The notes under the pieces: model-generated
What the model was told of the DNA's origin: nothing
What the model saw: only the letters and a program-made list of their open reading frames with translations
Database searches by the model: none
Made by a program: the position numbers and the translations under genes
NCBI RefSeq assembly: GCF_000003815.2
Contig: NC_049992.1
Coordinates: 5,406,481-5,470,480, forward strand
From: Branchiostoma floridae
Taxonomy: Eukaryota; Chordata; Leptocardii; Amphioxiformes; Branchiostomatidae
Direction of reading: 5' to 3'
Length of the DNA: 64,000 bases
Shown here: positions 26,461 through 47,357 of the stretch, in pieces
Position numbering within the stretch: position 1 is the stretch's first letter
Layout of the letters: each line of letters starts with the position of its first letter

Positions 26461-26557
26461 TAATGATTCACATCATTTCATTTCTACTTGATGTATGATT
26501 ATTTATATCTTTCTCAATTTTGTATTTCGCTTAGTTCAGTTATGTATATGTCTTTGT

Positions 26558-26606
26558 ATAGTGGTGGCGTGAATGTAAGTTCCCAACTTGAGTGCGCCAC
26601 CACTAT
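26558..26606. repeat. Perfect 12-bp-stem hairpin
   Basis: ATAGTGGTGGCG (26558-26569) and CGCCACCACTAT (26595-26606) are exact reverse complements. The loop contains a second small palindrome, AAGTTCCCAACTT. Confidence 0.8.
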
Positions 26607-27114
26607 GTCTTTTGTATCTTATTTGTCTAAAACACTACAATGAAGTCATTGTAACGGTTTTCAGACAAATCAGTTTCAGAAACAGGCGATGATTGCAATG
26701 CGTTACAATTCTAACGCGATACATGTCTAGAAACTAGGTTAAAAAACAACAAATGTATGGTATTTCAACAAACAAGGTGACTTAATCAGCAATAACAACA
26801 ATCAAATCAAAATCGTCTAGTAGAGATAGAAATGAAGCAACACGGTCATGAAATTACTCACTTGGCAAAAATAGGATAAATACATATTAAAAACGTTTCA
26901 TGTTGTTGTTTTCTGCAAACAAGTCTGTCAAGAATCATTCACCTCCAAGAATCATTGACTTCCAAGAATCGTTGACCTCCAAAAATCATTGACCTCCATT
27001 GTAATTACTGCAGTCTGCATACCCACTTCCTTAACTTGACCTGCAGCTGGTGGGTGAATGGTAGGTTTAGACGCATGTATATGTATATATTATCCTCGCT
27101 ATTTTTGGTAGCGT

Positions 27115-27387
27115 TAACCTGGAATCCAGTCTACCGTGGATTGGCTAGGCTACCTTAGGGACAGGTGAGTCTTTCCGCCGCCGGGGTAATCTTTCACACC
27201 CAGTAAGAGTTTTGCACGATGGCCATCCGCGTGGCCTACTAATTAACTCGCACTGGGCAATTCCTACCGCGTAAAAATGCTTCCAAGTGTGAACAATTAC
27301 CCCGGCGGCTGAGAGCTGCACTTGCCCCGTAGAGAGCCTACACTAACTACGGTAGGCCGTGCCACAAGGAGACTGGAGTCCAGGTTA
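27115..27387. mobile_element. MITE, 273 bp, with 9-bp target-site duplication
   Basis: Ends TAACCTGGAATCCAGTC and GACTGGAGTCCAGGTTA are inverted repeats (one mismatch). A second internal inverted pair, GCCGCCGGGGTAAT and ATTACCCCGGCGGC, is present. TGGTAGCGT stands immediately outside both ends (27106-27114 and 27388-27396). A 9-bp duplication suggests Mutator-like or a related superfamily; assignment is uncertain. Confidence 0.85.
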
Positions 27388-27889
27388 TGGTAGCGTTTGT
27401 GTGTGTCTGTACGGTTGTATGGCTGTCGGTGGAGAGCATAGCTCTCGAAAGCCAGTAAATGGATAGTATTGATATTTGGTATGTGGGTAGATCTTGTGGT
27501 AGAACTTGAAATAATTAGATTTCAGACCCCCTGGCGGCTTATTGCTGTACTGCAGAGGAACTATCGGGTTTGATACCTCGTGTTACGGACATGCTATGGT
27601 GGTGATATTTGAGCAGTAGATAGCTAGGTTAGGGTAGACTGGCAAATGGCGTCCGTTAGGGCCCCTAGCGGCATTTTGGGGAACTGTATAGGATCAGGTT
27701 TAGTTTCATACTCTGAATGAGAATTACTCATTAAAATTAAGGGATTAAATCACAATGATTTTGAACCAACTTTTCACTTGCCCGAAATTGGAATGACCCT
27801 TTTCTATGTATTTTCACTTCCAATAATGGAATTCTTTTATTTTGGGGGATATATGGGATATAGGTTGTTTACAAGTACTTTAATTCAAT

Positions 27890-28262
27890 AATAATAAGTT
27901 TTATTGCAAATTCTTTCCCGAGGGCTAATTGCAAGTGACAAAAATGACATACAATTAATAGTGATATACAAATACAAGTAACAGTATAGTAAGCGACTAT
28001 TCTAGTCTATCTTAAACTAGTTAAAGATGTAACTTATTGGGTTTGACTTCTTTTTCTGAGACAGTGGAAGACGAAAGATCCCACTTTTTCTGTAATGTGT
28101 GGGTTTTGTGACGTTAAAAGGAGAGTAGTTTTCTTTTTGTCTGTAAATGTGGAGATATTAGGATAGAATTTTTTGGATTCTTTTAAGAGCTCTTTTCTCT
28201 CTTGATCATAGAAGGGGCAGTTTGAAATAAAATGTGTTTCGTATTTCATGTTTACAAACATG
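27890..28262 (-). mobile_element. 5'-truncated LINE, C-terminal reverse-transcriptase ORF fragment
   Basis: The minus-strand reading frame contains ETHFISNCPFYDQERKELL, then SQNPHITEKVGSFVFHCLRK. This is the typical extreme C-terminus of animal non-LTR retrotransposon ORF2 (HF...C..Y...R..L followed by a helical KF.. end). The 3' UTR contains CCCGAGGGCTAATTGCAAG and ends near AATAATAATAAG. Confidence 0.75.
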
Positions 28263-28865
28263 ATTACAGAAAGCCTGATAACTATAGGAGTATTTCAGAG
28301 CATGTCATAGTTAGTTTCCTCATTGGTGGCAGTTAGGGCTGTCCATTGGAAAGCATGTTAAAATACACTGAATGAAGGCTTAAAAAAGTACTAACCCATA
28401 TTTCAATCTTAAAAATTCTTCTCCACCAGAAAGTCACTTGGGTCTAGTTTATAACCATTCAAAGAAAACAGAGGGTTGTTCGGCTCATTCTCCGAGAAAA
28501 ACTCGCTCTATGAAAGAAACCTCACCTTTGACCCCAGTTCCCTCCTGATACAACCGAAAACCTGTCCTCACACCAACTAAACTGCTGAACTGAACAGAAT
28601 TTTGACCCAAACAGGAAAGCTTAGACCCTACCAGGCACTTCTAACTCAAAAAGTCTCCAGATTGGGCAAAAATTTTCAAGGAAAAGAAAGATTTTCAAGG
28701 ATTTTAAGTCACACCCAAATCCATTTTTGCCCTCTACTGCGAAACGCAGCTCTGACGTCAGTCCTAATTGGTGGTGAACAGGGGGAAAATAACAACAAAA
28801 GCATCAGCACATGCAACGGGTAAATACTGTAGTGAGGCGGATACCCCACTCATGAAAATATATTA

Positions 28866-29564
28866 GACCCCGTTCACACTCAAAAAAATGAAGCGGCTTC
28901 AACGTGGAAGCCGCTTGATCCGGATCGTTTTCTTGAGTCTGAACGCTCCAAGTGGCTTGGATTTTCACCGATCCGGCTCGTTTGCAATCCATCCCTGGGA
29001 GGTAGTTTGAGACACTTGTGAACAAGCCGCTTGGCTGAAATCGCGAGTGTGAACGCAATGTGGCTAGATTCTATGTAAATTTCCGATTTGCCCCCTGTTG
29101 GAGGTTATATATCCATGTATCAGCGGGAGCAGGAACACACGCCACATTGAAAGGTTTGCTCACGTTACTAATTTTTGTGCCCAATGATAATGTGGATAGA
29201 AAGAAAAAAAACGCTGTAGGGTCAAGGCAAGTGGAATGGGAAGCAAACATAGCTTTTTTTTTATCACGCGAAGAGAGGGGAACCACAGCAAGCTAAAAAA
29301 AACACAAAAAACAAGCATATCTTTGAACAGATCTCTCTCTGGATCATGATATAAGACTATTAAGAGTGGGTTTGAGAAAACCTACAAACAATGTTGTACA
29401 AAAAGTACCTGAAGTCCAGGTACGGAATAACAATCAGCTTGGATTGTGTGCGATTAATCTGATTGTCTGTAATGAGTGTGAACGTAATTTTTTTTGAAGC
29501 GGATTGCACGTTCAAGCGGCTTCCACGTTGAAGCCGCTTCATTTTTTTGAGTGTGAACGGGGTC
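28866..29564. mobile_element. PIF/Harbinger-like MITE, 699 bp, long TIRs
   Basis: The ends are inverted repeats of about 50 bp, starting GACCCCGTTCACACTC and containing AAGCGGCTTCAACGTGGAAG. They are flanked by TTA on both sides (28863-28865 and 29565-29567). TWA duplications are characteristic of PIF/Harbinger elements. No transposase remains. Confidence 0.85.
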
Positions 29565-29689
29565 TTACTTGCCTAATTGGATATGCACAAGACAAGTGTA
29601 CTTGTCCAACTCTGAACAAAAATATTTCTCACGTCACAAGCTATCTGCCACCAAAAAATCAAGACCATAGCACATCCAGATCAAAAGAT

Positions 29690-29842
29690 ACAAAAAACAT
29701 AATTCCTGCTGCAGTACCAAGATCACGTACCAGGGGGTCGAAAATTAACCTTGACCTTCGTCTTTCCAACATCTACCCACATACTAAACATCATGGCAAT
29801 TCGTCCAGAGGTTCCTGAGTTATGCTGACCACAAATGTCCGG

Positions 29843-29929
<87 letters not shown>

Positions 29930-29945
29930 AAAAAAAACTATATCT
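29690..29945 (-). repeat. Dispersed repeat with (CA)n terminus
   Basis: On the minus strand this reads (GT)n, TTTCCGGACATTTGTGGTCA, CCTCTGGACG and TATGTGGGTAGATGTTGG, ending GTACTGCAGCAGG. The plus-strand copy at 61375-61570 and the fragment near 27460-27545 match it, and the CA tract at 2380 has the same junction. Confidence 0.75.
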
Positions 29946-30419
29946 CCATTTTTCATAGAGATAATAACCTAAGTTTCATTTGTGTTGATACCCAGCATTA
30001 TAGTACAGTTTAAATAGGATCCTGAAAATATCCTGATGCTTTTCACTTTTGCATTGTTAAGCTGTATATGTGGGTTCTTTTATACTGAATTCTGAAACAA
30101 AAATCATAAATTTGTATATGTTATATGCTGTTGTTTTTTAACATAGTTTCTCAGAAACTGTTCAAGATTTGTCTGAAAATCGTTTCTAGTGCTGTGCATC
30201 TATATTGCGTGGGTTTGCACATATTGACGTGCTGTCAATATTGATTTGGTTTATTCAAGAGGTTATGTAATCATGGAATATAAAACTTCGATGGGAGCCG
30301 CTCTATGACGCAAGAGGGTGAATAAATATCCAACATTGCAGCCATACTGTTATACTATTTTGTTGATATTGCTGCTGTCAACATAGGAGCAAAGTATCTA
30401 AATCCTGTATCATTCTTGT

Positions 30420-30590
30420 CTCGGTAGCATTATTTCTTTGCGATCGCTGTTTGTAAGCTGTGCCTTGTGGCGAAGGTAAATCAAGTTATGATTACATTTG
30501 AGAATCCTATAGCACTGTAAACGTAGTCTGTTACTTTTCACTTGGCGGCCAAGGGGTGTTTTGACGGGCTCAGTCTTGCTGCGTTGTTTT
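30420..30590. repeat. Inverted copy of dispersed repeat 26290-26460
   Basis: The reverse complement matches 26290-26460, including GCAAGACTGAGCC, AACAGACTACGTTTACAGTG and AGCTTACAAACAGC blocks. Confidence 0.75.
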
Positions 30591-30929
30591 CTTGCAGTGG
30601 TCTGCTTTTCAGGTATAATCGTTTGCTTTTTTCCTTGTTTCTAAAAATGACATGCAGTATGTTATATTGAAACGTAACTGATAAGTTTGCACAATTCGTA
30701 AAACCATGTATCGCCGGCCAATTGCTGATGTTTTTGGTGTCAATTGTTGTTTTCTTTGTTGTTATATAATGATTACAGAACGTGTGTAAGGTGTCCATTT
30801 TTTTCAGCTTGTGGACAAAATATTGATTTTCGTACTCGAGTAGTCTCTTATAATTTAAAAACTTATACGTTATGGCTTAGTTGTCAATAAGATGTTTAAT
30901 TAAAAGGAATTTTAAGCCTAATATACTAG

Positions 30930-31315
30930 TAATAGTATGTTTATTGCAAATTCTTGCCCGAGGGCTAATTGCAGGTACAAACAACATGTAAAATAAGGGA
31001 AATACAAAGGTGCTAGGAACTACATTCTATGACTATGTTATTAATTGTGCTACTGAAGTGTACATTATACTGGTTTGGTTGGGTTTGACTTCTTCTTTTT
31101 AGGAAGTGGAAGACGAATTTACCCACTTCTTTTATAATGTGTGGGTTCTTTGATTTTAATAGTAGGATTGCTTTATCATTGTCAGGAATAGTTAGAAAGT
31201 AAGCGTGTATTTTGGATACACTCATCACAAATAGTTGGTTTCTTATATCATCATAAAAAGAACAATTCGAGATAAAATGACTGTCGTCTTCCACCGCATT
31301 AACAATAATAATAAG
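30930..31315 (-). mobile_element. 5'-truncated LINE, second copy
   Basis: The minus frame reads NAVEDDSHFISNCSFYDDIR, then KSKNPHIIKEVGKFVFHFLK, homologous to the copy at 27890-28262. The same 3' UTR block, CCCGAGGGCTAATTGCA, is present. Frames are open in the fragment, so it is relatively young. Confidence 0.8.
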
Positions 31316-31427
31316 GTAGTAGACTTGAAGTAATAAACAAGTGATTTGTCGGGTATGCTCCACAGAAATGCATTGTGTTTTTTCTTCTTGGAATTTTGTA
31401 ACAGGGAGCCTTGTACGCCTCCAACAG

Positions 31428-31718
31428 GCTAGGCTGGGTACCATACCATCGAGGTGCTCGAGATACTCTTCGGCGCTTTGGGCGTAGCGGGCCCGTGCAG
31501 TTAATTGGCGCAGGCCGGGGGAGTTCTTACGGGGTTGGTTAGATTTCGTCGCTGGCGGCGTAATTAATAAACTCCAAAGGCCGGCTACAAGCTCTGTCAG
31601 CCAAATCTGAAAGGGCAGCTAATCAGACAGGCTGCTGACAGAAGCAGGTCGGTTTCTTAGAACCGGGCAGGGTAAAGCACTCCAAAGCCGACCAGCGGAG
31701 AATGGTACCCAGGCTACC
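31428..31718. mobile_element. GC-rich TIR element, about 290 bp
   Basis: GGCTAGGCTGGGTACCAT at the left and ATGGTACCCAGGCTACC at the right are imperfect inverted repeats. The interior is markedly GC-richer than its surroundings. The exact ends and target duplication are not resolved, although CAACAGGC occurs just outside both ends. Confidence 0.5.
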
Positions 31719-31823
31719 AATTGCAACAGGCCGACCTACATGGGTACGGTGATCGTAGAATTCGGCAAAAATTGGGGGATTGACCAGGGGAGTCAGGAAA
31801 TGCTGCGATGCCGGCCAAACTAT

Positions 31824-32222
31824 CTCGTAGCAAATCTCTAGCTTCCTTCACCGGCGTCTCTAGGGCTTTGGCGAAGTTTTTTTTCTGTGAGGTGGGGAGG
31901 GGGGGTGGACGTCGATTCGCGATTTTTATCCGAGAATACGACGGGAAAGGAAAATATGCGGGGGAAGGAAAAATGCCCGGGAGAGGAATATATCCCGGGG
32001 GGCTTGTACCGGCCCTAGCACGCCTGCAAGCCTTCGGGAGATCTGAAGCAAGATATATATTCCTCTACCGGCATTTTTCCTTTCCCAGCATATTTTTCTT
32101 TCCCGTCGTAATAGTATTCCCGGGTAAAAATCGCGAATCGACGTCCACCCCCACCCCCACCCCTCAAAAAAACTTTCGCCAAGGCCCTAAAGACGCCGGT
32201 GAAGGAAGCTAGCAAAACTCGA
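31824..32222. mobile_element. Fold-back element, about 400 bp
   Basis: The left arm (CTAGCTTCCTTCACCGGCGTCT, then GTGGACGTCGATTCGCGATTT) is inverted in the right arm (GCGAATCGACGTCCACCC, then AGACGCCGGTGAAGGAAGCTAG). Only about 40 central bases are unpaired. The long ORFs on both strands here are by-products of the fold-back. Confidence 0.85.
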
Positions 32223-32322
32223 TCCCCTACCAACTTATTGTCCCTATAATAGCCAGCGTAGTCAGTCTGGTAGAGACTAGAGACTTTTGTGTCAATTATG
32301 TTTTTTGTTGTTGAAATAACAG

Positions 32323-32556
32323 AAATATCAGCAAAAAACAAAATGTTAGAACAGGAGAATCAACAAGAGAAGTCTGGTGATAACGGCACCAACCCGCAGC
32401 CTGGTCCATCCGCACCCCGATATCTCCAGATGGAAGACCACTTGTGGGAGTATCCGAGGGACGAGGGTGAAGCGTGCTACGATCAGCACTACGAACAAGG
32501 GGAGACTTACGATTACAAAGATCCCGAGGATGTGAACTTTCCAGACACGGCCGAAG
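32323..32556 (+). CDS. Lectin cytoplasmic cassette A (tyrosine-rich)
   Basis: Phase 1-1 exon, acceptor GAAATAACAG, donor GAAG|GTATTT. It contains [32 protein letters not shown] and [11 protein letters not shown]: six tyrosines in an acidic context. An internal Met (MLEQENQQ) could serve as start. Confidence 0.75.
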
Positions 32557-35500
32557 GTATTTTTAGATGCAGCATAACGTACAGATAAAATACAAGCAGG
32601 AATACTCTCCAAACAGAGGTTGAGTCGCGTAGATATATGGGGGCCCCAAAGCCCTTTTCCGTAGAGCGTAATCGGCGGTTTTAATTCTACGTACTACGTA
32701 GCGGGACCGCTTGAATTCAACGTAGAGCGTAATCGGGGCATTTTGCGTCGAGCGATATTGGCTTCCTTAATTTAACATATTACGTAGAAGCTAACCGGAT
32801 TTTACCGTAAAACGTAATTCATATCAATTTTTCGTAAAGCGTAATCAAAGTTGCATTAAACTTAACTTGTCTACCGGCAAATTTTACTCGCGAAAATGCA
32901 GGAAATTGCGTTTCAAAGGGTCCAGATTTCAAAATTTCGCCGGACCTTCCTTGCGATGGCTTACCCCTTCGGCATTGGACATTTTGAAAATATGTTGCGG
33001 GAGCGTCGCCCCCCAACTAGTAGAAATTTTTTTACCGAACTTAGTTAACAAGCAAAATGTGCCCCTTAATAAATGCAGGGAATGGCATTTCAAAGGGTAC
33101 GGGTCAAGATTTCAATTTTTCTCCGGGCGCCGGGTGGCCCTTGGGCTGGCGACGGCTTGGGCCTCTGGTGCTCACGACTCGTCGCCCTCAAAAACGTTTC
33201 TCTGACAGAAATGTCATTACATTGAGCATATGGTCTGCCAGCAAAATTTATCCCTCAAAATGCAGGAAATGGTGTTTCAGAAGGTACAAGTTTCCAAATT
33301 TTCCCGTACTTACCTTGCGACAGTTCGTCCTTTCGGCACTCGAAATCTGAAAATGATGTTTTGGGGCGTTGCCCTCAATAACTTAAAACCATGTGAATTT
33401 CTAATTGGAATGCTATTTAACTTAGCTCAGTATAGTCTGTGAGCAAAATGTGCCCTTTAAAATGGCGTTTCAGAGGGTCAAGATTTCACAATATTCCCGG
33501 GGGAGCATGCCCCCGGACGCCCTAGGATTGTCGCGCCTCCACTTTCGGTGATACAAGTGCTGAAAATTACGTCACATAATAAATTTGCTGTCACCGCCTC
33601 TGGCCAGCAAGACGTCTAAGTTAAGTTTGAATCTTGTTCATGGAATTATCAGTTTTGTTTAGATCTCCTCTTCACGTGTTCTGCCGTCGGCGGATTTCAG
33701 CCAAAGACGATAATTTAATGATTTGCATAATGCATTATGAAATTTCTTAATTTAGCGTAGAGCGTAATAAAGTGTCTATAATTTAGCGTATTACGTAGCC
33801 GGCCCTCCCGAATTTAGCGTACAGCGTTGTCGGTACCCCCCCCCCCCTTGGGGGCCCTCATATATTGTAGTAGTCGGAAAATTAACAGGCGCGCTCCTCT
33901 TACCTCTGCCTCAAACACTGCATGATCGGATTTACCCAATTGGTAAATGCAATGTATAGCCGGGTAAAGTTTAGATTTACCAAGGATTTATCGACATTTA
34001 CTCGCCGATTAAGGTGCCATTTACCTGCATGGTATAGCGGGGTATGTTTGCCTGGTTTACCCGTATTTACCAGGTTCGTGTAAATATACGTTTACCGAGA
34101 TTTAGCGTACGAGGTATTTCTCATGTATTTTGATGCTTTTTGATTACTGTACTGTTTTTCTATTACTATACTGTTTCTCGATTACTGTTTTATTTCTTGA
34201 TTACTGTACTTTTTCTTGATTACTGCACTGTTTCTTGATTACTGAACTGTTCTTGATTACTGTACTCAGTATGATTCTTGATTACTGTACTTTTTCTTGA
34301 TTACTGCACTGTTTCTTGATTACTGAACTGTTCTTGATTACTGTACTCAGTATCATTCTTGATTACTGTACTTTTTCTTGATTACTGTAGTGTTCCTTGA
34401 TTACTATAGTGTTTCTTGATTACTGTACTGTTTCTCGATTACTGTAGTGTTTCTTGATTACTGTACTGTTTCTCGATTACTGTAGTGTTTCTTGATTACT
34501 GTACTGTTTCTTGATTACTTTACTCTTCTTGATTACTGTACTAAGTCTGATTCTTGATTATTGTAATGTTTCTTGATTACTGTACTGTTTCTCGATTACT
34601 GTACTGTTTCTTGATTACTGTACTGTTTCTTGATTACTGTACATGTTTCTTGATTACTGTACATGTAGTGTTTCTTGATTACTGTAGTGTTTCTTGATTA
34701 CTGTACTTTTTCTTCATTACTGTACTCAGTCTCTGATTCTTGATTACTGTGCTGTTTCTTGATTACTGTACTGTTTCTTGATTACTGTACATGTAGTGTT
34801 TCTTGATTACTGTACATGTAGTGTTTCTTGATTACTGTACATGTACTGTTTCTTGATTACTGTACATGTAGTGTTTCTTGATTACTGTACTGTTTCTTGA
34901 TTACTGTACTGTTTCTTGATTACTGTACATGTACTGTTTCTTGATTACTGTACATGTAGTGTTTCTTGATTACTGTACATGTAGTGTTTCTTGATTACTG
35001 TACATGTAGTGTTTCTTGATCACTGCAGGGTTTCTTGATTACTGTACTGTTTCTTGATTACTGTACTGTTTCTTGGTTACTGTACATGTAGTGTTTCTTG
35101 ATTACTGTACTGTTTCTTGGTTACTGTACATGTAGTGTTTCTTGATTACTGTACTGTTTCTTGATTACTGTACTGGTTCTTGATTACTGTACTGGTTCTT
35201 GATTACTGTACTGGTTCTTGATTACTGTACTGTTCCTTGATTACTGTACTGTTTCTTGATTACTGTACTGTTTCTTGATTACTGTACTGTTTCTTGATTA
35301 CTGTACTGTTTCTTGATTACTGTACTGTTTCTTGATTACTGTACTGTTTCTCGATTACTGTTCTATTTCTTGATTACTGTACTTTGTCTTGATTACTGTA
35401 CTGTTTCTTGATAACTGTACTGTTTCTTGATTACTGTACTGTTTCTTGATTACTGTACTGTTTCTTGATTACTGTACTGTTTCTTGATTACTGTACTGTT

Positions 35501-38500
35501 TCTTGATTACTGTACTGTTTCTCGATTACTGTTCTATTTCTTGATTACTGTACTTTGTCTTGATTACTGTACTGTTTCTTGATAACTGTACTGTTTCTTG
35601 ATTACTGTACTGTTTCTTGATTACTGTACTGTTTCTTTATTACTGTAGTGTTTCTTGATTACTGTAGTGTTTCTTGATTACTGTACTGTTTCTTGATTAC
35701 TGTACTGTTTCTTGATTACTGTAGTGTTTCTTGATTACTGTAGTGTTTCTTGATTACTGTAGTGTTTCTAGATTACTGTAGTGTTTCTCGATTACTGCTC
35801 TATTTCTTGATTACTGTACTTTTTCTTGATTACTGCACTGTTTCTTGATTACTGAACTGTTCTTGATTACTGAACTGTTCTTGATTACTGAACTGTTCTT
35901 GATTACTGTACTGTTTCTTGATTTCTGTACTGTTTCTTGATTACTGAACTGTTCTTGATTACTGTACTGTTTTTGATTACTGTACTGTTTCTTGATTACT
36001 GTAGTGTTTCTTGATTACTGTAGTGTTTCTTGATTACTGTAGTGTTTCTTGATTACTGTAGTGATTCTTGATTACTGCACTGTTTCTTGATTACTGTACT
36101 GTTTCTTGATTACTGTACTGTTGCTTGATTACTGTAGTTTTTCTTGATTACTGTGTTGTTTCTTGATTACTGTACTGTTTTTTTTATTACTGTACTGTTT
36201 TTTTTATTACTGTACTGTTTCTTGATTACTGTACTGGTTCTTGATTACTGTAGTGTTTCTTGATTACTGTACTGTTTCTTGATTACTGTAGTGTTTCTTG
36301 ATTACTGTAGTGTTTCTTGATTACTGTACTGGTTCTTGATTACTGTACTGTTTCTTGATTACTGTACTGTTTCTGGATTACTGAACTGTTTCTGGATTAC
36401 TTCACTGTTTCTGGATTACTGTACTGTTTCTTGATCAACAGCAGAAATGGCAGGAGACAGCATAATGTTGAAACAGGAGGATCAACGTGACATAGGTGAT
36501 GCCAGTTCCGGTAACAGTACCGACCCGCACCCTGGTTCACCTAAACCCAGATACCTTCAGGTGGGAGATCACATGCTGGAGTACCCGACAGACGAGGGAG
36601 AGACGTGCTACGATCAGCATTACGAGCAGAGGGAGCCGCACGTGTATGAAAAACCCGAGGATGCTAGCTCTGCGGGCATGGACGGTGGTAAGTTGAGATA
36701 CAACATAAAATGCATAGATATAAAAACAATAGGTGGTGTAATAGAGAAAGTACTAATAATATACAATGATTCAATTATCGAAGATATAAATGACAGAAAA
36801 AATGTTGCATTCATGATCATGTGAACAAGAATCTTGGGTACCCCGCTGCAAATGGTATTGAATACTGATATGGCCAAAAGACGTAAGGATTGATGTATTT
36901 ATGGTAAAATAGGTCTTGGGTTCAAATCTTACCTTCGAACTTTATGTATTTATTTTTTTAGTTTTACCACATTACATTGCATCATGTAGCAGAATAAGTT
37001 AGATCATAGTGAATATTTGGCTTTACTGCAAGTACAGTCAAACCTGCCCGAGCGACCACCTCTTCTCAGCGACCACCTGGCTATTTCGACCGCTTTTTCT
37101 CGGTTCCGATTTTTTTTCATTGACGTAAGCGTTAAGCGACCTTTTCTCAACGACCACTTGGCCAACTCGACCTGTCGACCGCGACCGGCCCAAATTGGGA
37201 CCCATAACGACCGCATCATTTTTAAAATTGAGGTTTTCATCGATTTTTGATGATAACTAGCGCGATTTTGTGGCGGAATCGGCCGGTTTACGTCGGATTT
37301 TGACTGCCATTACAATGTTATGTTTAGAATAAAGATGGCGGCGGTCAACGTAGTTTTTTTTTAAAATCTATATTAACATAAAGTGAACGAATGCTGAAAC
37401 GTATATAGCCTCATACTTTTTAAAGAAAAATCTGTGTAGCTCATACCTTTCTCAGTAAGATCTGTTTGAGTGCTTTTGCAACTGTACTGTACATTCACCC
37501 GTGGGTAAGTACGCTATCGGGACGTACCGGCATCGAATTCGAAAGGTGCACCGTAGTTATTTCAGATACGGCGATCAAGAACACAGCGACGCATAAAGGC
37601 TTGTATGGTAACTGACAGCATCAAAGTTCCCTAACTGTCTAAAACGTTAGTGTGCAAATATTGAGCTTTAAAACACTGTATCGAATAAAAGCTCGGGGTT
37701 AAATCTACAGTTTACAGTGTGCGTGTTGTATTTGACATTAAAGACCTCGCTTCTTTGCGTGCGTGCAGTGTTCTTGCTATTTGCCTTTAAACACAACGGA
37801 AACCATTTATACCTTGTATCGGGCATGTTTTGAGTCGATACTCTTCTCAGCGACCACCTGTCCAAATCGACCGACTTTACCGGTCCCACTGGTGGTCGTC
37901 TTGTGCAGGTTTGACTGTAACTGAATACTGTAAATGTATTAAAGTTCGCGGGGATTTAATTTCGCGGTAGCGGGAAAAAGGACTTTTCGCGGTTGATTTA
38001 AGTTCGCGGTAACACCATAGACTGCAATCTAATATCATGATAGAATAATATTCGCGGTGGTTTTAAATTCGCGGTGAAGTGGTCACCGCGAAAACCGCGA
38101 ACATTAATCCACCGCGAACATTTCTGCATTTACAGTATGCCATTATGTATCTGACAACGTATTTTAAAGTAGAGCCGGAGAAAAACACATTTGAAATAAA
38201 CGACTGAAAGTTGATATGCAATTTACTTTTGTCTGATACAGTACTGTTATGCTGTACCACAAAACTTTTCATAATTGCAAAATGGCCTGAATACCATTTT
38301 AATAATTAATCATTTATGATGTCTAGGCGATTCTCTGGGTCACGTCAAATACAAGTAATTTTGGAATTTTTCCTTTTCCCTTTGATACGTAGAGTTAATT
38401 TTTTGCACATAGATTTGTACCATTCATGTTTTGGTTATTGAAGAAAGATTGCAGTATGTTCAGACAGGTACATGTATGGCCCAGTCAAGCCTGCATTCTA

Positions 38501-41500
38501 ATCTTTACTTGCGATATCTAGGAGTAGCTGTCGGAAATCATGCTCTTGGTGTTTATTTTGGCAGCAGAGAAAATAGCCGAAAAGAACGCAAATAAAATGA
38601 CAGAAGAGGGAGATCGCCACGCGACAGGAGATGACCCGGATGCTGCCGCTTCTGGTAATAGCGACACCGACCCGCACCCTGGTCCATCCGTAGTCCGATG
38701 TCCCCAGGGGGAAGATCACAAACCGGAGGATCCGAGAGACAAGGACGAGACTGGTTCTCATCAGAACTTCAAAGAAGAGGATCCCGGCGAGAACAAAGAA
38801 CCCGAGGACGTGAGCTTCGCAAAGAAGACCAGAGGTATGTCGATGAAGAACATGGCATAGAGAATCCTTGCATTACGTACACCTATGATTTCAATTTCTG
38901 GCAGGTAAAGCTGTTTTCGTCTTTTTAGAAAATGTTCTTTCGTAACCTTTATGAAATGGTTGTCTGTTGGTATGGTGGTGGTTTGACCTGGTATCCAATC
39001 AGTTTTGCATGGGAGGTCGTTTGGAAGCGTTCGTTTTTTATAACTCGAAAATGTCCCTCTGATCGGGATGACTTCAAATTTGGAACCACCAATATATTTA
39101 GATACCAGTTGTTTTTATTAGTTGATCTAGGAACAGCCAGAAAAATATTCATATTTGTTTCTCTAAATAGTTAAATCATTTTTACTGAGAGTGTGTGTTT
39201 TTTAGTTGATTACAGTTAGCTATACGTCTTGTGCTTTGACAATTATATCATCATGATTTGATATGATCAGATGGCAACAGTTTCATCCTGATCGTTTTTT
39301 TTTTTTCAGCCCGTGTCATGGCGATGTGGGGTAGAGCAAAAGCTAGTAAAGTTCTGTGGTTTATCCTGGGTCGTGGACTCTTGGTGATAGCATTAATTGT
39401 CAGCACTGCAACCCTGGCACATATCATTGGATCTAGAATAAAAGAGAGAGTAAGTTTTTTTTACATCATCTATAAGTAGTACTGTAAATGTATTTAAGTT
39501 CGCGGGGAGTTAATTTCCCGGTAGCGGGAAAAAGGACTTTTCGCAGTGGTTTCAAACTCGCGGTAACACCATGCTCTGTAGCCTCTTACTGCCATGGAAA
39601 AATGTTCGCGGTGGTTTTAAGTTCGCGGTGAAACGGCCACCGCGAAAACCGCGAACATTAAACCACCGAGAAATTTTCTGCATCTACAGTATTATCGACT
39701 CTATCTTATTTCCATGTATTCATCGACAATTGCACAAAAAGTAAAATGCTGAATACAATTCCTATACTTAGAATATGAAAAGATGAAAGAATTTTATTAA
39801 TAAAGGACACAGCATACATAGCACAAGAGGGATATTGAAACAAAATAAGGGAATACAAGATGGTTCTGTGTACAATCACGAAAACGAAACTGTACAATCT
39901 ACATCAAGAGACGATCAACAGAAAATTACTTTTGTAAGTAAAGATATGTTTCGCGGGATCGTGTGGTGCAATCGGCTGGGAGTTCGATTCATAACTCAGA
40001 GGTTTACGGTTCGAATCCATTGATGTTCCACCGATCATTTTTTTCACCGGCACTTTACACAGATTTCTCACTTCACTCAGGGGAAATTTAGTACCTAGCT
40101 TCGTCCCTTGGATAGGGTGTTAAATAGGGGTCCGTGTTGTAGGCGAGCCACACCTCGAGCACGTTGAAGAACCCAGGGCACTTATAAAAAAGAGTCTATT
40201 AGGTGTCCTTCCCGGTGTGAGTGGTTTAAATTAATCTGACTGTGCATGCAGCTTGTACTGTTCAGTACAAACCTGGTGTGTTACACCATGAGGCGAATTA
40301 CTAATAAGTAACAATTACTACGCTATAACTATTATTAAAATATGTTGTCGCTATTGATCTTCAATTTTTTTCTCCACGTCTGGTGCTGTTTCCCCAAAAT
40401 GAAATTGAAGATCATTATCGCATATTTGTAGGAGCCACACCATGGCAATGATCATGAAAAGGCCGGGGACCCTGGCACTCCATTGCTGATGACAACCTTT
40501 GGGATCATGGAGAACAGCTCGCAGGTTGGTCATTCGACCTCACCCTTCTCACCATCGGACGCAGAAACAAGAGAATCACCTACAAGGTTTGGTCTAAACG
40601 TCGACACCTTACCGGTGACCGTCACATCTCTGCCAACCACAGGTATCACATCTCTGTCAACCACAGGTAAGAAATGATTACACAAACATGCATGTTTACG
40701 CAGTACTTTGAGGATAGGCTGTGTATCTTTCCCTTTCTATGTGGAACTATGCTCATGTCTGTATCTATAATCGTTATGTCACACGCGTAGTTGCACATGT
40801 GGGCTAGTTCAACTCAGGAGGTGCTGTGTATATATATATATATATATATATATGCAGCTGTTATACCTGTTCTCTTCACTGCTGTGTGCTAATCAGAGAA
40901 CGCAGTATATATGCCAAGTAGGTGTGGGCACCGGTACAAAATCTGTTTTCCTTGTTGGACCGGTCCGGAAGAACCGGACCTGATACAAACAAATGAACCG
41001 GACTTTGGACCGATTAGAAAATTAACACATTATATCAGCAGGAATTCGCACGTTTGTGGTTTTCCCGGTCTAATAGAATAACAAGATAAAAGTAGAGTAG
41101 AGTTTATAGTAATTTCTACCGAATTTACAGTCACACTCGGCCTAAAAACGATCACTTACAGTTCGCCCCAAAATGTTAAGTCCTCATTTGACCAGTAACT
41201 GGCGTCACGTATACGCAAGATCACGCGTTTGTAAGGTTATTTTTCGCGACATCTCAGGGGCGGAGGCATTCTTTACAGTATTATAATCGCTTTGAAAATA
41301 ACGTCTATATAAAGAGGGGAATTCAGGCTATGATATCTTTACTTGTGATTTATGAGTTAGCACGTTACGGGGCTTAATAAGCCATGGAGATAAAGAGAAC
41401 AGAGAGTTTTCATTCCCGACAGCAAGTTACGGGCTAGCCGTTGGGACAAAGAACAAAGAGTTTTCATTCCCAGCAGTCTGTTTCGGGGCTAGCCATGATT

Positions 41501-43693
41501 TTTCCGCTCTTTGTGTTTGAACTTGACACTGTAGGTTACATTTGTGCGGGCACGGCACGTGCGCTGTATCTCTAGAACGTAGATAAGTTTTCTGATGGAC
41601 CATGTCTTTCAAGGGTACCCACCCTAACGTTAGCATCTGCAGTAAAGAGTCTCTATGGTGCTGTCATATTTGATTTATTACACTATCAATGGAAAAGGCA
41701 AAGGTACATCATGCATATGCCATTTCGAATCAAATAATCAATGTATTGAATATAGTTTTCATGAAAGTTCTAAATCTGCTGAGATAATAGACATACTATT
41801 AATAGCATTCATGTGCCATTTAATGAGCCCTCTTTAACTGCTAATAAGAAAATTGTCGCTGTAGTAGCCGTCTTGAAAAGCTGTATTTTTAGTTTGTTTC
41901 AGATTACCTTTTCTCTGTTTTCCATGTAGTTGATGGCGGCTGGTCTGACTGGAGCGCATGGTCTGACTGCAGCGTGACGTGTGGAGTCGGTACGCAGACT
42001 CGGGACCGAAGCTGCACCAATCCGGCACCAACTGACGGCGGGGCGGAGTGTGATGGAGATACTGAGGAGACACAAGAGTGCGACTCGGGAGTTTTCTGTC
42101 CAGGTAACTTTAAGTTCCATTGTTGTTCATGTGTTTGGATTTCTAAGCTGTTATCTTTGATTTATTACATTATCAATGGAAAAGGCAAAGATACATCATG
42201 CATATGCCATATCGAATCAAATAATCAATGTATTGAATATAGTTTTCATAAAAGTTTTAAATCTGATGAAAACATTGAGATGATAGACATACTATCAATA
42301 GCATTCATGTGCCATTCAATGAGCCCTCTTTAACTGCTAATAAGAAAAATCAGAATTGTCGCTGTAGTAGCCGTATTGAAAAGCTGTATTTTTAGTTTGT
42401 TTCAGACTACCTTTTCTCTGTTTTCCATGTAGTTGATGGCGGCTGGTCTGACTGGAGCGCATGGTCTGACTGCAGCGTGACGTGTGGAGTCGGTACGCAG
42501 ACTCGGGACCGAAGCTGCACCAATCCGGCACCAACTGACGGCGGGGCGGACTGTGATGGAGATACTGAGGAGACACAAGAGTGCGACTCGGGAGTTTTCT
42601 GTCCAGGTAACTCTAAGTTCTATTGCTGTTATAGTACTTGTATTTTTGGCGACGCCTCAGGGGCGGAAGCATTCTTTACAGTATTACGATCGCTTTGAAA
42701 ATATTTCAAAAATTGCACGAATGCATTCCATAGGGAATTTTTTTTGAGGTAGCCTTTGCTTGTTTGGTCTTTTGTCGGAACAGAAACGGCCTTTGTTTGT
42801 TGGTATCTTGGAGCCACGTGTAATGTCTTATTTTGCTTCTTTCAGCACAAAAAAATTGTCACAATGTTTTAGTGCGTCTTCTGTTCCTGGAAAATGAGTT
42901 ATTTGTTAATATTACAGCTCTAAATCCCTATTTTGGTGTTCTTTGAGAGAAATAGGATCACTATATTAAAGCTTTTATGCTTCAAATATGTTTTTTGTTT
43001 CAGCCGTGAACACAATCGTATTTTGAATTTGCTGAATATGATTTCAAACAATGCTTATTTTTAAGATGTTTGTAGAAAGCGGAAAAGGCTATGACTGTCC
43101 ACATTGAAAGAAACTAAGACAAACGATCCACACAATTGTCTATGCCTTTATTCCATCATCATTCACATCAAACACACGTTTGTCACATCTCAAGACACAA
43201 ACATCGAGAATATGAAGACCTTGCAGACTGCACATGGCAAAGACGTGGTGTTCTTACAACTTTATAACTGGATTTACTTCAGAATCTATAACAATGACCC
43301 TTGAAAATACATTCAAGCAAAACACTTTTTTTGTAATTCTGTTGACATTGTAACAAATTGTTTGCAAACATATTAGTACCACAAAATTACTGGAACTATA
43401 GAGTGATTGACTTCCGTTTCGTTGAGGCGATAGATTTTGTGCATATTATAGCTACTGTTACCGCAGTCCAAGTTTAACTCTTAATTTCTTGGGACTGTTG
43501 TTGTTGTCACGTAGAGCTGAAAGAAATAATATAGAGCAGATTAGGAATACTTAACACATGTTGTCAGACCCGAACATCCTACACAGTGTGGTAACAGTAT
43601 TCTTAGCCTTGGATGGTAGGAATTTATGCACATTACCAAACACCAAGTTTAAGTCCATACCAAAGTACATTACCTGGATATCCTTAATTTAAT

Positions 43694-43777
<84 letters not shown>

Positions 43778-46700
43778 ATGGAAAGAGAGAGAAAGAGAAG
43801 GACAGGAAGACAGAGATAATGTTGTATATTCAATACAATAACAGAAGTTAACTTATTATGCCTAGATTTTTTACGCATATGTTTCAAGAAACAAACTACT
43901 GGTTGTAATTAGTATTATACATTAACAAAACAAAGTAATACATACAGAATGGAAATAACGTCTATATAAAGGGGGGAATTTAGGCAATGATATCTTTACT
44001 TGTGATTTATGAGTTAGCACGTTACGGGACTAGTCATGGAAACAAAAGAGAACAGAAAGTTTTCGTTCCCGACAGCATGTTAGGGGCTAGCCATGGGGAC
44101 AAAGAGAACAAAGAGTTTTCATTCCCGACAGCACGTTACGGGCTAGCCATGGGGACAAAGAGAACAAAGAGTTTTCATTCCCGACAGCACGTTACGGGCT
44201 AGCCATGGGGACAAAGAGTACAAAGAGTTTTCATTCCCGACAGCACGTTACGGGCTAGCCATGGGGACAAAGAGAACAAAGAGTTTTCATTCCCGACAGC
44301 ACGTTACGGGCTGGCCATATGGGGACAAAGAGTTTTCATTCCCGACAATATGTTTCGGGGCTGTGACACTGTGAATATGAACGTGACAGTGGGTACCTGT
44401 TTTAAACACTGTCCCTTGAGCGCAGCGTTCAGTTGTACAGGCGGTGGTGCGAGTGAAACGTTTTCACAGATGTCCCCATGAACTCCCAGTTCTAAGCTTG
44501 ACAGCACCTATCAAACACTTTCATCTGAGTTCGGGTTTCAGCTATACAGGTGGTGCGAGTGTTTTGATTTCACAGATGTTCCCACCAGCACGGTATACTG
44601 AAATAGTAATTCCCCGCCAGATGTCCTGGTCTAGCAGTCTGTGCTTTGAGACTTTCAATCAGCTACTTCGGGCCACCATTGTGACATTGTCAATCGACCA
44701 TGAAGCGATCAATCCCCTGATAAATCTAAAAATCTCCACTTCGTCATGGATTGTTCTAGATATGATACGTTACGTCGTAAGTTATTCACATTTCTCGAAT
44801 CAAGTAGATCAGATTTCACGAGACTTGATGCTACAGACAGATTTGAATATGAATATCTTCAATGGCAACTCCCACAACGCAAAAATAGACAAATATATAA
44901 AAGACAGTTTGTTATTGGAAAATATACCGACAATCATGATTAGCCCCAATCGATTGATACATGATATCAAAACTTATGCTAGCATTTATTGTTATAGTAA
45001 TTAAGATGTTTAGTTTTATCCTATATCTTTATTTCATAGCCTGTGTAATAGTTGCTGCCATACATTGTACCGTATACAATTGTTTTGCAAAAAAGTTCAT
45101 TCATTCATCCATATACTGTCAAGGCACAGACAGTCCACATCAGAGACAAAGGGTGTCTATGACAGCAGAGGTCCTTATAAAACAAACAAACAAGCAAACA
45201 AACAATTATTCCATTGTAACCTTTCGTCGCCTGTGCTTTTGTAAACGCCATGCTTGTTTATAACACTCACGTGTTTACGCTTGGAAGTTACTGGTCATTA
45301 TTGAACCTAAAGAAGATGACAGACAGTGGTCGTTGAACATTTGATTCGTATATACCTTTGTGTTGGAAGAAAATACAATATTATAATGTTTAGTTCTGAT
45401 TCATTAACCCTGCTAAAACATTTCGAATGAAACCACTTTGACCCCAGATTTGGTCCCCTTAAACGCCTTGCAGCTCGATGCCAAGGTGACTGGAGTGAAT
45501 ACAATGGTCACTGCTACAAGCTGATGACGGACAAAGTCAACTGGTTTAAGGCAAATGAGCAATGCAAACAACATGATGGAAACCTTGCTTCCATCATGGA
45601 CGAAGCCGAGACCCGCTTTATCAAAGATATCATCAAAAGTGGTGAGTAAAATCCAACTCATTTTTTGGCAGTGGTAATCACACGTTAGCCAACAAAATGA
45701 ACTTTACAAAATTCCCTCATGCAAGAATGGACTCTTCCAGTGCATCCCATGTGAATTCGTACAATAGACCAGTCCAGAAATACTCCCACTGAAAATATGA
45801 TCTTTTGAATAAAAAATCCAGTCCAATATTGAATTTTGAAAAAAAAGTCCCCGTGCATGAAAAGATAAAATAGACCAGTCCAAAACCTCTAAAAATGTAA
45901 CTTTGAATCATCACCCGTCCAAAACTGAATTTGAAAAAAATTCCCCCTCTGTGCAAGAATTGACTCTTCCTATCATAGCCCTATGTTAAGTTCAAAAATT
46001 AATCCAATAAGACAAGACTTTTGACATATTAGCCTTTCACCATAAAAAGAATTCTCTTAAAGAAGATCAGATGTCCTTGCAATAAGATACACAAAGTAAT
46101 ACTTGTCTACTAGTTAACTAGTTACTCGAGGAACTGTATGAAATTTCTACTTGAAGTTTCATCAGACCGTTTCAAAATCTTACCCTGTTGCTTATAAAGT
46201 AGTTATTCCTTTGTGTATGATTTTTTCTGTTGCATCCTATACAGAAACGGACTATTCCAATCTTTTCTCGTTTAATCTTGATTGTTTGAGACCTATGAGA
46301 TTTAAGATAAATTCTAATCCTAATTAATCTATGGAAGTATGGGGTCTTCAAACATGTTTTTAATAGATAAGCGCCTTATATAGAGTTCCTATTGACATTG
46401 GAATATTTGTAGTAAGTTGTCTCTCACTAACCGACGAGTTACATGAATTCCAGCCCCTAGCGGCTTCAACCCATCCGTTTGGCTGGGACTACACAAAGAC
46501 AGGAATTGGAAATGGTCGGACGGATCTCCTGTTACCTACACCAACTGGGGTCCGGGGGAACCCAACAATTTTTTCCTGTTCCGTGGGATAGAGGGAGAGA
46601 AATGTGCCGGCGTGTACTTCAAGGTGGGTTTTCTACGTTGTTCTTTTTGAGAAGGTAACCCCAAATGTTGTAAGAATGTATGTTTCGGTTTGTTTTCCTT

Positions 46701-47357
46701 TTCTTGCTTTAATCAGTTAGAGAGCATGTGTGGGATTGAAAAAAAATGTCGAATTAGTATTGCTTACTATTAGTCTTGAACAAAGTTATACGGGCTGAAC
46801 AAAGTTTAATATAGATATCGTTTTATAGACGAAGAGATCTTGTTTTTTTGTAAATCATGGTCACATTTTCTCATTTAATAAGTTGATAAAAAAAGTTGAA
46901 TATTCTTTCCATGGAAATTATCACAACAAGATTTTCATTTATTTTCTTAATAAATCATTTCTCAAAATGATGTTTACTCTCATGGATTTCTTTTCAGAAA
47001 TGCAAGTCAAAATTCTTTTTTTGTCATTTCCAACAAAATATCTTTTTCTTGTCATATTTAAGAAAATGAGAATTTTAGGAAGGATACTCTCACTTGAGGA
47101 AAAATGCTCTTAGAAAAAATAGTTATTCGAAAAGCTGTGGAAGAAATGTTTTAATAAACACAGAAAGTTTTCTTCTTTAAAGAAAGTCTTGCTGTGAATC
47201 AGAAGAAATAAATTATTAGAATAACGTTTTATAGTATTTTCTCTGTTAATAACAGACGGGAAGAGATTTCTTCATCGGTCCACATCGGAAAATGGGACAA
47301 TGGAACGACTTAAACTGCAACAAGGAGTTCTCATTTCTTTGCAAGACTCTTAATTAG
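32323..47357 (+). CDS. Type II transmembrane C-type lectin with thrombospondin type 1 repeats
   Basis: Exons 32323-32556, 36445-36687 and 38568-38834 (three homologous cytoplasmic cassettes), 39310-39449 (membrane span), 40432-40666 (stalk), 41930-42103 and 42433-42606 (TSR), and 45474-45641, 46454-46623 and 47256-47357 (CTLD, stop TAG). All junction phases agree, and cassettes and TSR exons are all phase 1-1. Predicted order: cytoplasmic tail, TM helix [20 protein letters not shown], Ser/Thr/Pro stalk with an NSS sequon, two TSRs, and a long-form six-Cys CTLD. The CTLD has EPN and WND, the known signature of Ca-dependent mannose-type binding. The topology suggests a cell-surface recognition receptor. 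The initiating exon is uncertain; each cassette has its own Met. AATAAA at 47436-47441 is a candidate polyadenylation signal. Confidence 0.85.
32632..33872. mobile_element. Composite TIR element, about 1.2 kb
   Basis: The ends TATATGGGGGCCCC and GGGGGCCCTCATATA are inverted. Subterminal direct motifs CGTAGAGCGTAAT and ATTACGTAG recur several times near both ends. The interior holds four degenerate modules (AAAATGCAGGAAAT.G.GTTTCA.AGGGT type) related to the interior of the hAT MITE at 13493-13871. It lies in the intron after lectin cassette A. Confidence 0.7.
34137..36435. repeat. 19-bp minisatellite, about 2.3 kb
   Basis: The unit TTTCTTGATTACTGTACTG is repeated for roughly 115-120 copies. 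Variants include ACTGTAGTG and 25-bp units with ACATGTAGTG. Homogeneous runs alternate with mixed runs. The array ends 9 bases before the acceptor of lectin cassette B. Confidence 0.97.
36445..36687 (+). CDS. Lectin cytoplasmic cassette B (tyrosine-rich)
   Basis: Acceptor AACAGCAG (tandem NAGNAG), ATG at 36447, donor GGTG|GTAAGT. It contains [32 protein letters not shown] and HVYEKPEDA, clearly homologous to cassette A. The acceptor sits directly at the end of the 19-bp minisatellite. Confidence 0.78.
37035..37917. mobile_element. Non-autonomous pogo/Tc1-mariner-like element, 883 bp
   Basis: The ends CAGTCAAACCTGC and GCAGGTTTGACTG are perfect inverted repeats flanked by TA on both sides. 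Subterminal GCGACCACC motifs are repeated. CAGT.AAACCT termini with TA duplication are typical of pogo/Tigger relatives. No transposase ORF is recognisable. Confidence 0.85.
37928..38135. mobile_element. 208-bp MITE, copy 1
   Basis: Inverted ends CTGTAAATGTATTAAAGTTCGCGG and CCGCGAACATTTCTGCATTTACAG are flanked by TA. The interior is full of TTCGCGG/CCGCGAA alternations. It is the same length as the copy at 39482-39689. Confidence 0.88.
38568..38834 (+). CDS. Lectin cytoplasmic cassette C (tyrosine-free)
   Basis: Acceptor GCAGCAG (NAGNAG), donor AGAG|GTATGT. It aligns with cassettes A and B ([45 protein letters not shown]), but every tyrosine position is replaced. It joins in phase to the membrane exon at 39310. 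Confidence 0.75.
39310..40666 (+). CDS. Lectin membrane-span and stalk exons (39310-39449, 40432-40666)
   Basis: 39310-39449 encodes [13 protein letters not shown] (basic, cytosolic side), then about 25 hydrophobic residues, then RIKER. With the C-terminal CTLD, the arrangement fits type II insertion. 40432-40666 encodes a hydrophilic stalk with ENSSQ (N-glycosylation sequon) and a Thr/Ser/Pro-rich end with the small duplication VTSLPTTG / ITSLSTTG. Confidence 0.85.
39482..39689. mobile_element. 208-bp MITE, copy 2
   Basis: Same family and exactly the same length as 37928-38135. The right end is diverged (CATCTACAG), TA flanks are present, and CGCGG blocks are conserved with point changes. 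It lies 32 bases after the membrane-span exon. Confidence 0.88.
39955..40330 (+). mobile_element. tRNA-derived SINE (copy 2)
   Basis: GTGGTGCAATCGGCTGG (A-box region) and a perfect B box, GGTTCGAATCC (40008-40018). The body and tail are shared with copy 1 (GAGCCACACCTCGAGCAC, AAGAACCC, CCTTCCCGGTGTGA, GTACAAACCTGGTGTGTTAC). Confidence 0.85.
40826..40855. repeat. (TA)n microsatellite
   Basis: Uninterrupted TA dinucleotides in the stalk/TSR intron of the lectin gene. Confidence 0.9.
41930..42103 (+). CDS. Thrombospondin type 1 repeat exon 1
   Basis: [20 protein letters not shown] shows the W..W..W ladder (C-mannosylation type) and the CSVTCGVG O-fucosylation consensus. RDRSC, ECDGDT, QECDSG and FCP supply six cysteines in TSR order. 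Phase 1-1. Confidence 0.95.
42433..42606 (+). CDS. Thrombospondin type 1 repeat exon 2
   Basis: Nearly identical to the exon 503 bp upstream; the only coding difference I see is GAG to GAC (Glu to Asp) in GGA(E/D)CDGDT. The intron upstream is also duplicated, so the unit was copied recently in tandem. Confidence 0.95.
43695..43777. repeat. (CA)n(TA)n(TG)n compound microsatellite
   Basis: A short CA run, about 30 TA units and then a TG run: together a long perfect palindrome likely to extrude as a hairpin. Confidence 0.92.
43955..44360. repeat. About 56-bp tandem repeat, 5-6 units
   Basis: The unit GCACGTTACGGGCTAGCCAT, then GGGGACAAAGAGAACAAAGA and GTTTTCATTCCCGACA, recurs from about 44020 to 44350. 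A two-unit diverged relative, with the same left flank, is at 41320-41500. A short ORF (43987-44202) runs through it only because the repeat is open. Confidence 0.9.
44690..44945 (+). pseudogene. Possible LINE ORF2 C-terminal relic
   Basis: One plus frame reads [19 protein letters not shown] and later [15 protein letters not shown]. This resembles the HF..DC..Y..LR..L pattern at the C-terminus of non-LTR reverse transcriptases. An upstream stop and a short length indicate decay. The overlapping 186-codon ORF in another frame is then probably accidental. Confidence 0.35.
45474..47357 (+). CDS. C-type lectin domain exons (45474-45641, 46454-46623, 47256-47357)
   Basis: In order: [93 protein letters not shown], stop. 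Six cysteines (long form), WLGL, EPN and WND are all present, so calcium-dependent sugar binding is plausible. Confidence 0.95.

Follow-up and report, generated by a model that had tools for sequence, protein, structure and literature searches.

The 64,000-nucleotide (nt) window of Branchiostoma floridae analyzed here (contig NC_049992.1, positions 5,406,481 to 5,470,480 of the forward strand) contains a lectin gene in which the exon encoding the predicted cytoplasmic tail is present in three copies, designated A, B and C. Pairwise comparison and reading-frame analysis confirm that the three tail exons are homologous, that their frames are compatible and that they belong to a single lectin receptor of predicted type II topology (Table 1). 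Transcripts of this gene may well use A, B and C alternatively, a tentative reading that is slightly favored here and that has the constitutive use of all three exons as a close rival.

In two-sequence BLASTP comparisons, A and B align at 55.9% over 68 residues (E 2e-28), A and C at 38.2% over 76 residues (E 5e-16) and B and C at 41.3% over 75 residues (E 2e-15). The residue identities in a codon alignment are 38/77, 30/77 and 28/80, respectively, and about a quarter of the columns are invariant in the three tails. The DPHPGP motif described by the first-pass annotation as common to the cassettes is shared in variant form, since A reads NPQPGP and B reads DPHPGS. At the nucleotide level, the exons score 561 (A-B), 516 (A-C) and 425 (B-C); the highest scores among 200 shuffles per pair were 238, 250 and 254, respectively. 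In contrast, none of 12 flank comparisons exceeds its own shuffle maximum, in a test that is rather insensitive owing to the gap costs used and in which three or four comparisons lie somewhat above the shuffle mean. The likeness ends at about the splice sites, and the intron starts after the donors are still similar (44–72% alike over intron positions 3–20). Because the exons align far above shuffles and the flanks do not, the duplications are old, with introns that have diverged and exon borders that have been kept. The tail exon was probably duplicated twice in tandem, long ago, to give three frame-compatible tails for one membrane exon.

The lengths of all three exons are multiples of three. 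All seven ordered combinations of them (A, B, C, AB, AC, BC and ABC) read in frame through the membrane exon at 39310 to the lectin stop, which bears out the earlier claim that the cassettes can be joined to the membrane exon or to each other. This read-through requires the first C-type lectin domain (CTLD) exon to end at 45641; with an end at 45640, which has no GT, none of the seven combinations is in frame. Given its composition, the chance of an open frame is 0.028 for A, 0.021 for B and 0.040 for C, and when neutral change of the observed amount was simulated, 4–10% of the runs stayed free of stops (six settings, P 0.04–0.10). On the opposite strand, one frame is likewise open in A and one in C, which weakens the open-frame argument. 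As had been annotated, each cassette has its own in-frame Met, with a Met in one alignment column common to the three.

The tails differ most clearly in their tyrosines. A has six and B has five, whereas C has none, and the earlier description of C as tyrosine-free is therefore upheld. A and B agree with each other at 38 columns that also have a residue in C; C agrees with them at 18 of the 38 and at none of the five that hold tyrosine, all of which are substituted. The acidic character of the tail is kept in C (net charges of −13, −12 and −10 for A, B and C). Thirteen motif patterns were scanned against the three tails, and the only matches were to the sorting-type signal YxxPhi (YLQM in A and YLQV in B, at the same alignment position, with no YxxPhi in C), YxxM (A) and RxR (C, where the match spans the junction with the membrane exon). 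Tails A and B had been labeled signaling-competent, a label that the scan does not sustain: the patterns for the immunoreceptor tyrosine-based activation motif (ITAM), the hemITAM-like motif and the inhibitory motif (ITIM) match 0/3 tails each, and the switch motif (ITSM), NPxY, YxN and YxxQ are likewise without a match. As the classic lectin-receptor signaling motifs are absent, sorting-competent is as good a guess as signaling-competent.

The alternative use of A, B and C, whether through exon skipping, mutually exclusive choice or separate leaders, would place the same lectin head on a tail with YLQ(M/V) and a YDQHYEQ-type cluster (A, B) or on an acidic tail without tyrosines (C). Bound material would then most likely differ in its uptake and trafficking, and tyrosine-kinase signaling is a second possibility. 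This reading draws on the homology of the exons, with their exact borders and seven in-frame combinations, on the retention of open frames along a path that neutral runs seldom complete, and on the common Met column. It also draws on the pattern of loss in C, in which every shared tyrosine column is gone while nearly half of the shared columns and the negative charge persist, on the co-location of YLQM and YLQV, and on the precedent of CD23, described below, in which two tails arise from two start sites and splicing and serve different uptake routes. If the tails are chosen in this way, tail choice from a tandem exon array would determine the uptake or signaling of an innate lectin of invertebrate type, as a convergent and more elaborate counterpart of CD23a and CD23b. 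If the exons are merely concatenated, the array would be an ordinary in-frame exon triplication.

In such a concatenation, A, B and C would always be included, to give one tail of about 245 residues composed of three repeats, the last without tyrosines. This is a real possibility, and several observations that weigh against alternative use bear on it. The shared phase and the divisible lengths that make each exon replaceable also let ABC read in frame, and the introns (A-B, 3888 nt; B-C, 1880 nt; C-membrane, 475 nt) have ordinary GT-AG sites and permit A-B-C co-splicing. No feature that would force exclusion (frame, short intron, U12 site or shared selector) was found among A, B and C, with U12 sites considered without a scoring model. 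The description of the cassettes as interchangeable thus holds for their compatible phases, but the same phases permit joint use. Steric exclusion through a short intron was ruled out by the length of the shortest intron. A search for shared RNA selector elements of the Dscam docking type gave zero in 17 of 18 comparisons and two matches in the other, a number equaled in 4/40 shuffles. With a splice-site matrix, the acceptors of A, B and C fall within the best 15%, 8% and 5% of AG sites, respectively, and the gene's other scored acceptors, which do not include those of the two TSP1 exons, rank from 0 to 39%. The cassette acceptors are no worse than several others of the gene, and weak acceptors were therefore ruled out as a sign of regulation. 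The segments that precede the Met (20 nt in A, 20 nt in B and 29 nt in C) are all 2 mod 3 and keep the frame; in C this segment has a stop in both non-coding frames and none in the coding frame. These segments lean slightly toward internal, fully translated exons over a pure first-exon reading. Concatenation does not need a Met in a shared column; however, since about a quarter of the columns are invariant anyway, the shared Met and the pre-Met frame both carry little weight and roughly cancel. The same gene also contains a TSP1 exon that was duplicated in frame together with flanking intron (41851-42142 and 42354-42645, 292 nt, 96% alike). This event is much more recent than the tail-exon duplications, and it shows that the gene gains repeats through plain exon duplication. 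With respect to the tail motifs, the loss of tyrosine from C (hypergeometric P = 0.031) is a single nominal test on a feature noticed beforehand, and YxxPhi, which occurs in 54–57% of shuffled A and B tails, is suggestive only through its identical place in A and B.

Selection at the protein level gives a mixed and mostly non-significant signal, and three short paralogues cannot tell a relaxed C from a shaped one. The pN/pS ratio (bootstrap limits) is 0.59 (0.38–0.93) for A-B and 0.63 (0.46–0.86) for B-C. Two further results also count against alternative use: the A-C ratio is 1.02 (0.63–1.93), and in no pair is the residue identity significantly above that of the neutral simulation (P = 0.055 for A-B, 0.77 for A-C and 0.10 for B-C). 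Together with a star-like divergence, the A-C values would suit a scenario in which C, or A and B, is decaying or unused, the receptor works with the remaining tail or tails, and the loss of tyrosine is drift. This scenario is improbable, as C retains its frame and the splice borders at both ends, its insertions and deletions are in frame, its splice sites outscore those of A at acceptor and donor alike, the B-C ratio is below one, and a neutral path of such length rarely stays free of stops. C is maintained as an open, spliceable exon, although conservation of C at the protein level is not demonstrated. It is less probable still that A and B form a separate upstream gene or pseudogene that is never joined to the lectin. 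A and B do stand 2.6–7 kb away from the membrane exon on its upstream side, with a tandem repeat of 2.3 kb intervening, and the first-pass annotation had itself raised their membership in another gene as a refuting case. However, they have the same borders and phase as C, the assembly is free of gaps from 20812 to 64000, and the cassettes have neither between them nor upstream another exon of the membrane, TSP1 or lectin type; at E < 0.1, the whole window yields no additional exon for the membrane segment, TSP1 or the CTLD.

A 19-base tandem repeat makes up part of the intron between A and B (Table 1). On the + strand it contains 34 AG dinucleotides, compared with 66 expected from its composition, and the stretch from 36309 to 36440 before exon B is free of AG. 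The sequence TTGATTAC occurs 93 times in the repeat, and we take TTGATTAC-type sequence to be branch-point- and pyrimidine-like, by comparison with the usual consensus. As the repeat has this character and adjoins B, the acceptor region of B seems to be made of repeat sequence. A more speculative proposal, which we consider unlikely, is that of a combinatorial array, in which up to seven tails on one head would range from uptake- or kinase-competent to tyrosine-free, the repeat would tune the inclusion of B, and repeat length could vary receptor behavior between individuals.

Among known systems, the nearest in its working is CD23 (FceRII). CD23 is a C-type lectin receptor in which two start sites, together with splicing, give isoforms with different tails; CD23a is linked with endocytosis and CD23b with uptake by phagocytosis, as described in PMC10089267, PMC8780385 and PMC11270207. 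It shares with the present gene a common lectin head and a differing N-terminal cytoplasmic tail. The CD23 tails differ by six or seven residues, whereas here three homologous exons of 78–89 codons are present, the ectodomain includes TSP1 domains, and the alternative isoforms are putative. The tail of CD23a contains a tyrosine signal. Receptors of the Dectin-1/CLEC-2 hemITAM type are C-type lectins that likewise combine tyrosine with acidic residues in the tail (PMC11624271); in contrast, tails A, B and C have no hemITAM-like, ITAM or ITIM match. Tandemly duplicated exons occur in about 10% of animal genes, a figure cited in PMC9013439. The mutually exclusive exons of Dscam and tropomyosin are similar in being tandem homologous exons able to replace one another, but here the lengths are 3n, the introns are long, no selector is shared and exclusion is unforced. 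In Fc gamma RIIB1/B2 and in long and short CEACAM1, splicing of tail exons changes uptake or tyrosine signaling; these receptors differ in being immunoglobulin-type, with C-terminal tails and no homologous cassette set. In a literature search at the level of titles and abstract openings, with most subscription journals outside its scope, no such triplicated lectin tail was named, and none of the matches listed contained the term "alternative first exon".

The lectin gene is on the + strand and contains no assembly gap (the N runs of the window are limited to 2108-2207 and 20712-20811); it starts at 32323 or further upstream and ends with the TAG at 47355-47357. AG/GT is present at each exon border. 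Pfam identifies Lectin_C (E 6.7e-20, 72.3 bits, cut-off 22.6) and two TSP_1 stretches (E 1.2e-29), and no domain in any of the tail cassettes, even with E values of up to 1 allowed. A PDB search with the lectin domain gave 211 distinct sequences within an E limit of 0.001. Both EPN and WND are present in the spliced product, as the tripeptides of a putative mannose-type Ca site. A single hydrophobic peak (residues 92-110) is preceded by the basic segment WGRAKASK. Since this segment lies on the side of the N-terminal tail, an N-inside, type II topology is likely, and the product is predicted to be a membrane receptor with an acidic cytoplasmic N-terminal tail and a membrane helix, followed by a stalk, a pair of TSP1 domains and a C-type lectin head of the Ca type. 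When eight pieces of the gene were compared with the window by tblastn, the matches beyond the gene's own exons were all weak (E 0.17 to 0.99). Inspection by eye of 26500-32340 gave no nameable upstream leader exon, and a TATA-like string near 32245 was unpersuasive as a promoter sign because it is too close to a possible start.

Table 1 Features of the lectin gene, in window coordinates.
Feature	Coordinates	Strand	Remarks
Tail exon A	32323..32556	+	Phase 1-1, 234 nt; 6 Tyr; YLQM; first in-frame Met 32343
19-base tandem repeat	34140..36435	+	116 copies; part of A-B intron; ends 9 bases before exon B
Tail exon B	36445..36687	+	Phase 1-1, 243 nt; 5 Tyr; YLQV; in-frame Mets 36447 and 36465
Tail exon C	38568..38834	+	Phase 1-1, 267 nt; no Tyr; first in-frame Met 38597
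Membrane exon	39310..39449	+	Phase 1 to 0; mean Kyte-Doolittle 2.21 over 19 residues
Stalk exon	40432..40666	+	Phase 0 to 1
First TSP1 exon	41930..42103	+	Phase 1-1
Second TSP1 exon	42433..42606	+	Phase 1-1; protein 98% identical to first TSP1 exon
C-type lectin domain exon 1/3	45474..45641	+	
C-type lectin domain exon 2/3	46454..46623	+	EPN tripeptide
C-type lectin domain exon 3/3	47256..47357	+	WND tripeptide; TAG stop 47355-47357

Other repeats are found within and beside the gene. Two repeat copies (37926-38138 and 39480-39692, 84% alike) flank exon C and the membrane exon, and the first of these has inverted arms (37918-37960 and 38103-38145), like a small mobile element. A large inverted repeat (31838-32212) lies just upstream of exon A; its arms, 31838-31977 and 32070-32212, are complementary in pieces at 81–93%.

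In the rest of the window, six of the seven neighboring open reading frames tested have a Pfam match. These neighbors include DDAH_eukar (1217-1660, − strand), RhoGEF (12787-13092, + strand) and an ionotropic glutamate receptor with several exons (57093-59908, + strand). An Rfam scan of the window gave no matches. A 109-base tandem repeat of about seven copies with 96% matches is located at 19606-20357, and TTAGGG-type tandem arrays are found at 57941-58013 and 58381-58601, between exons of the glutamate receptor.

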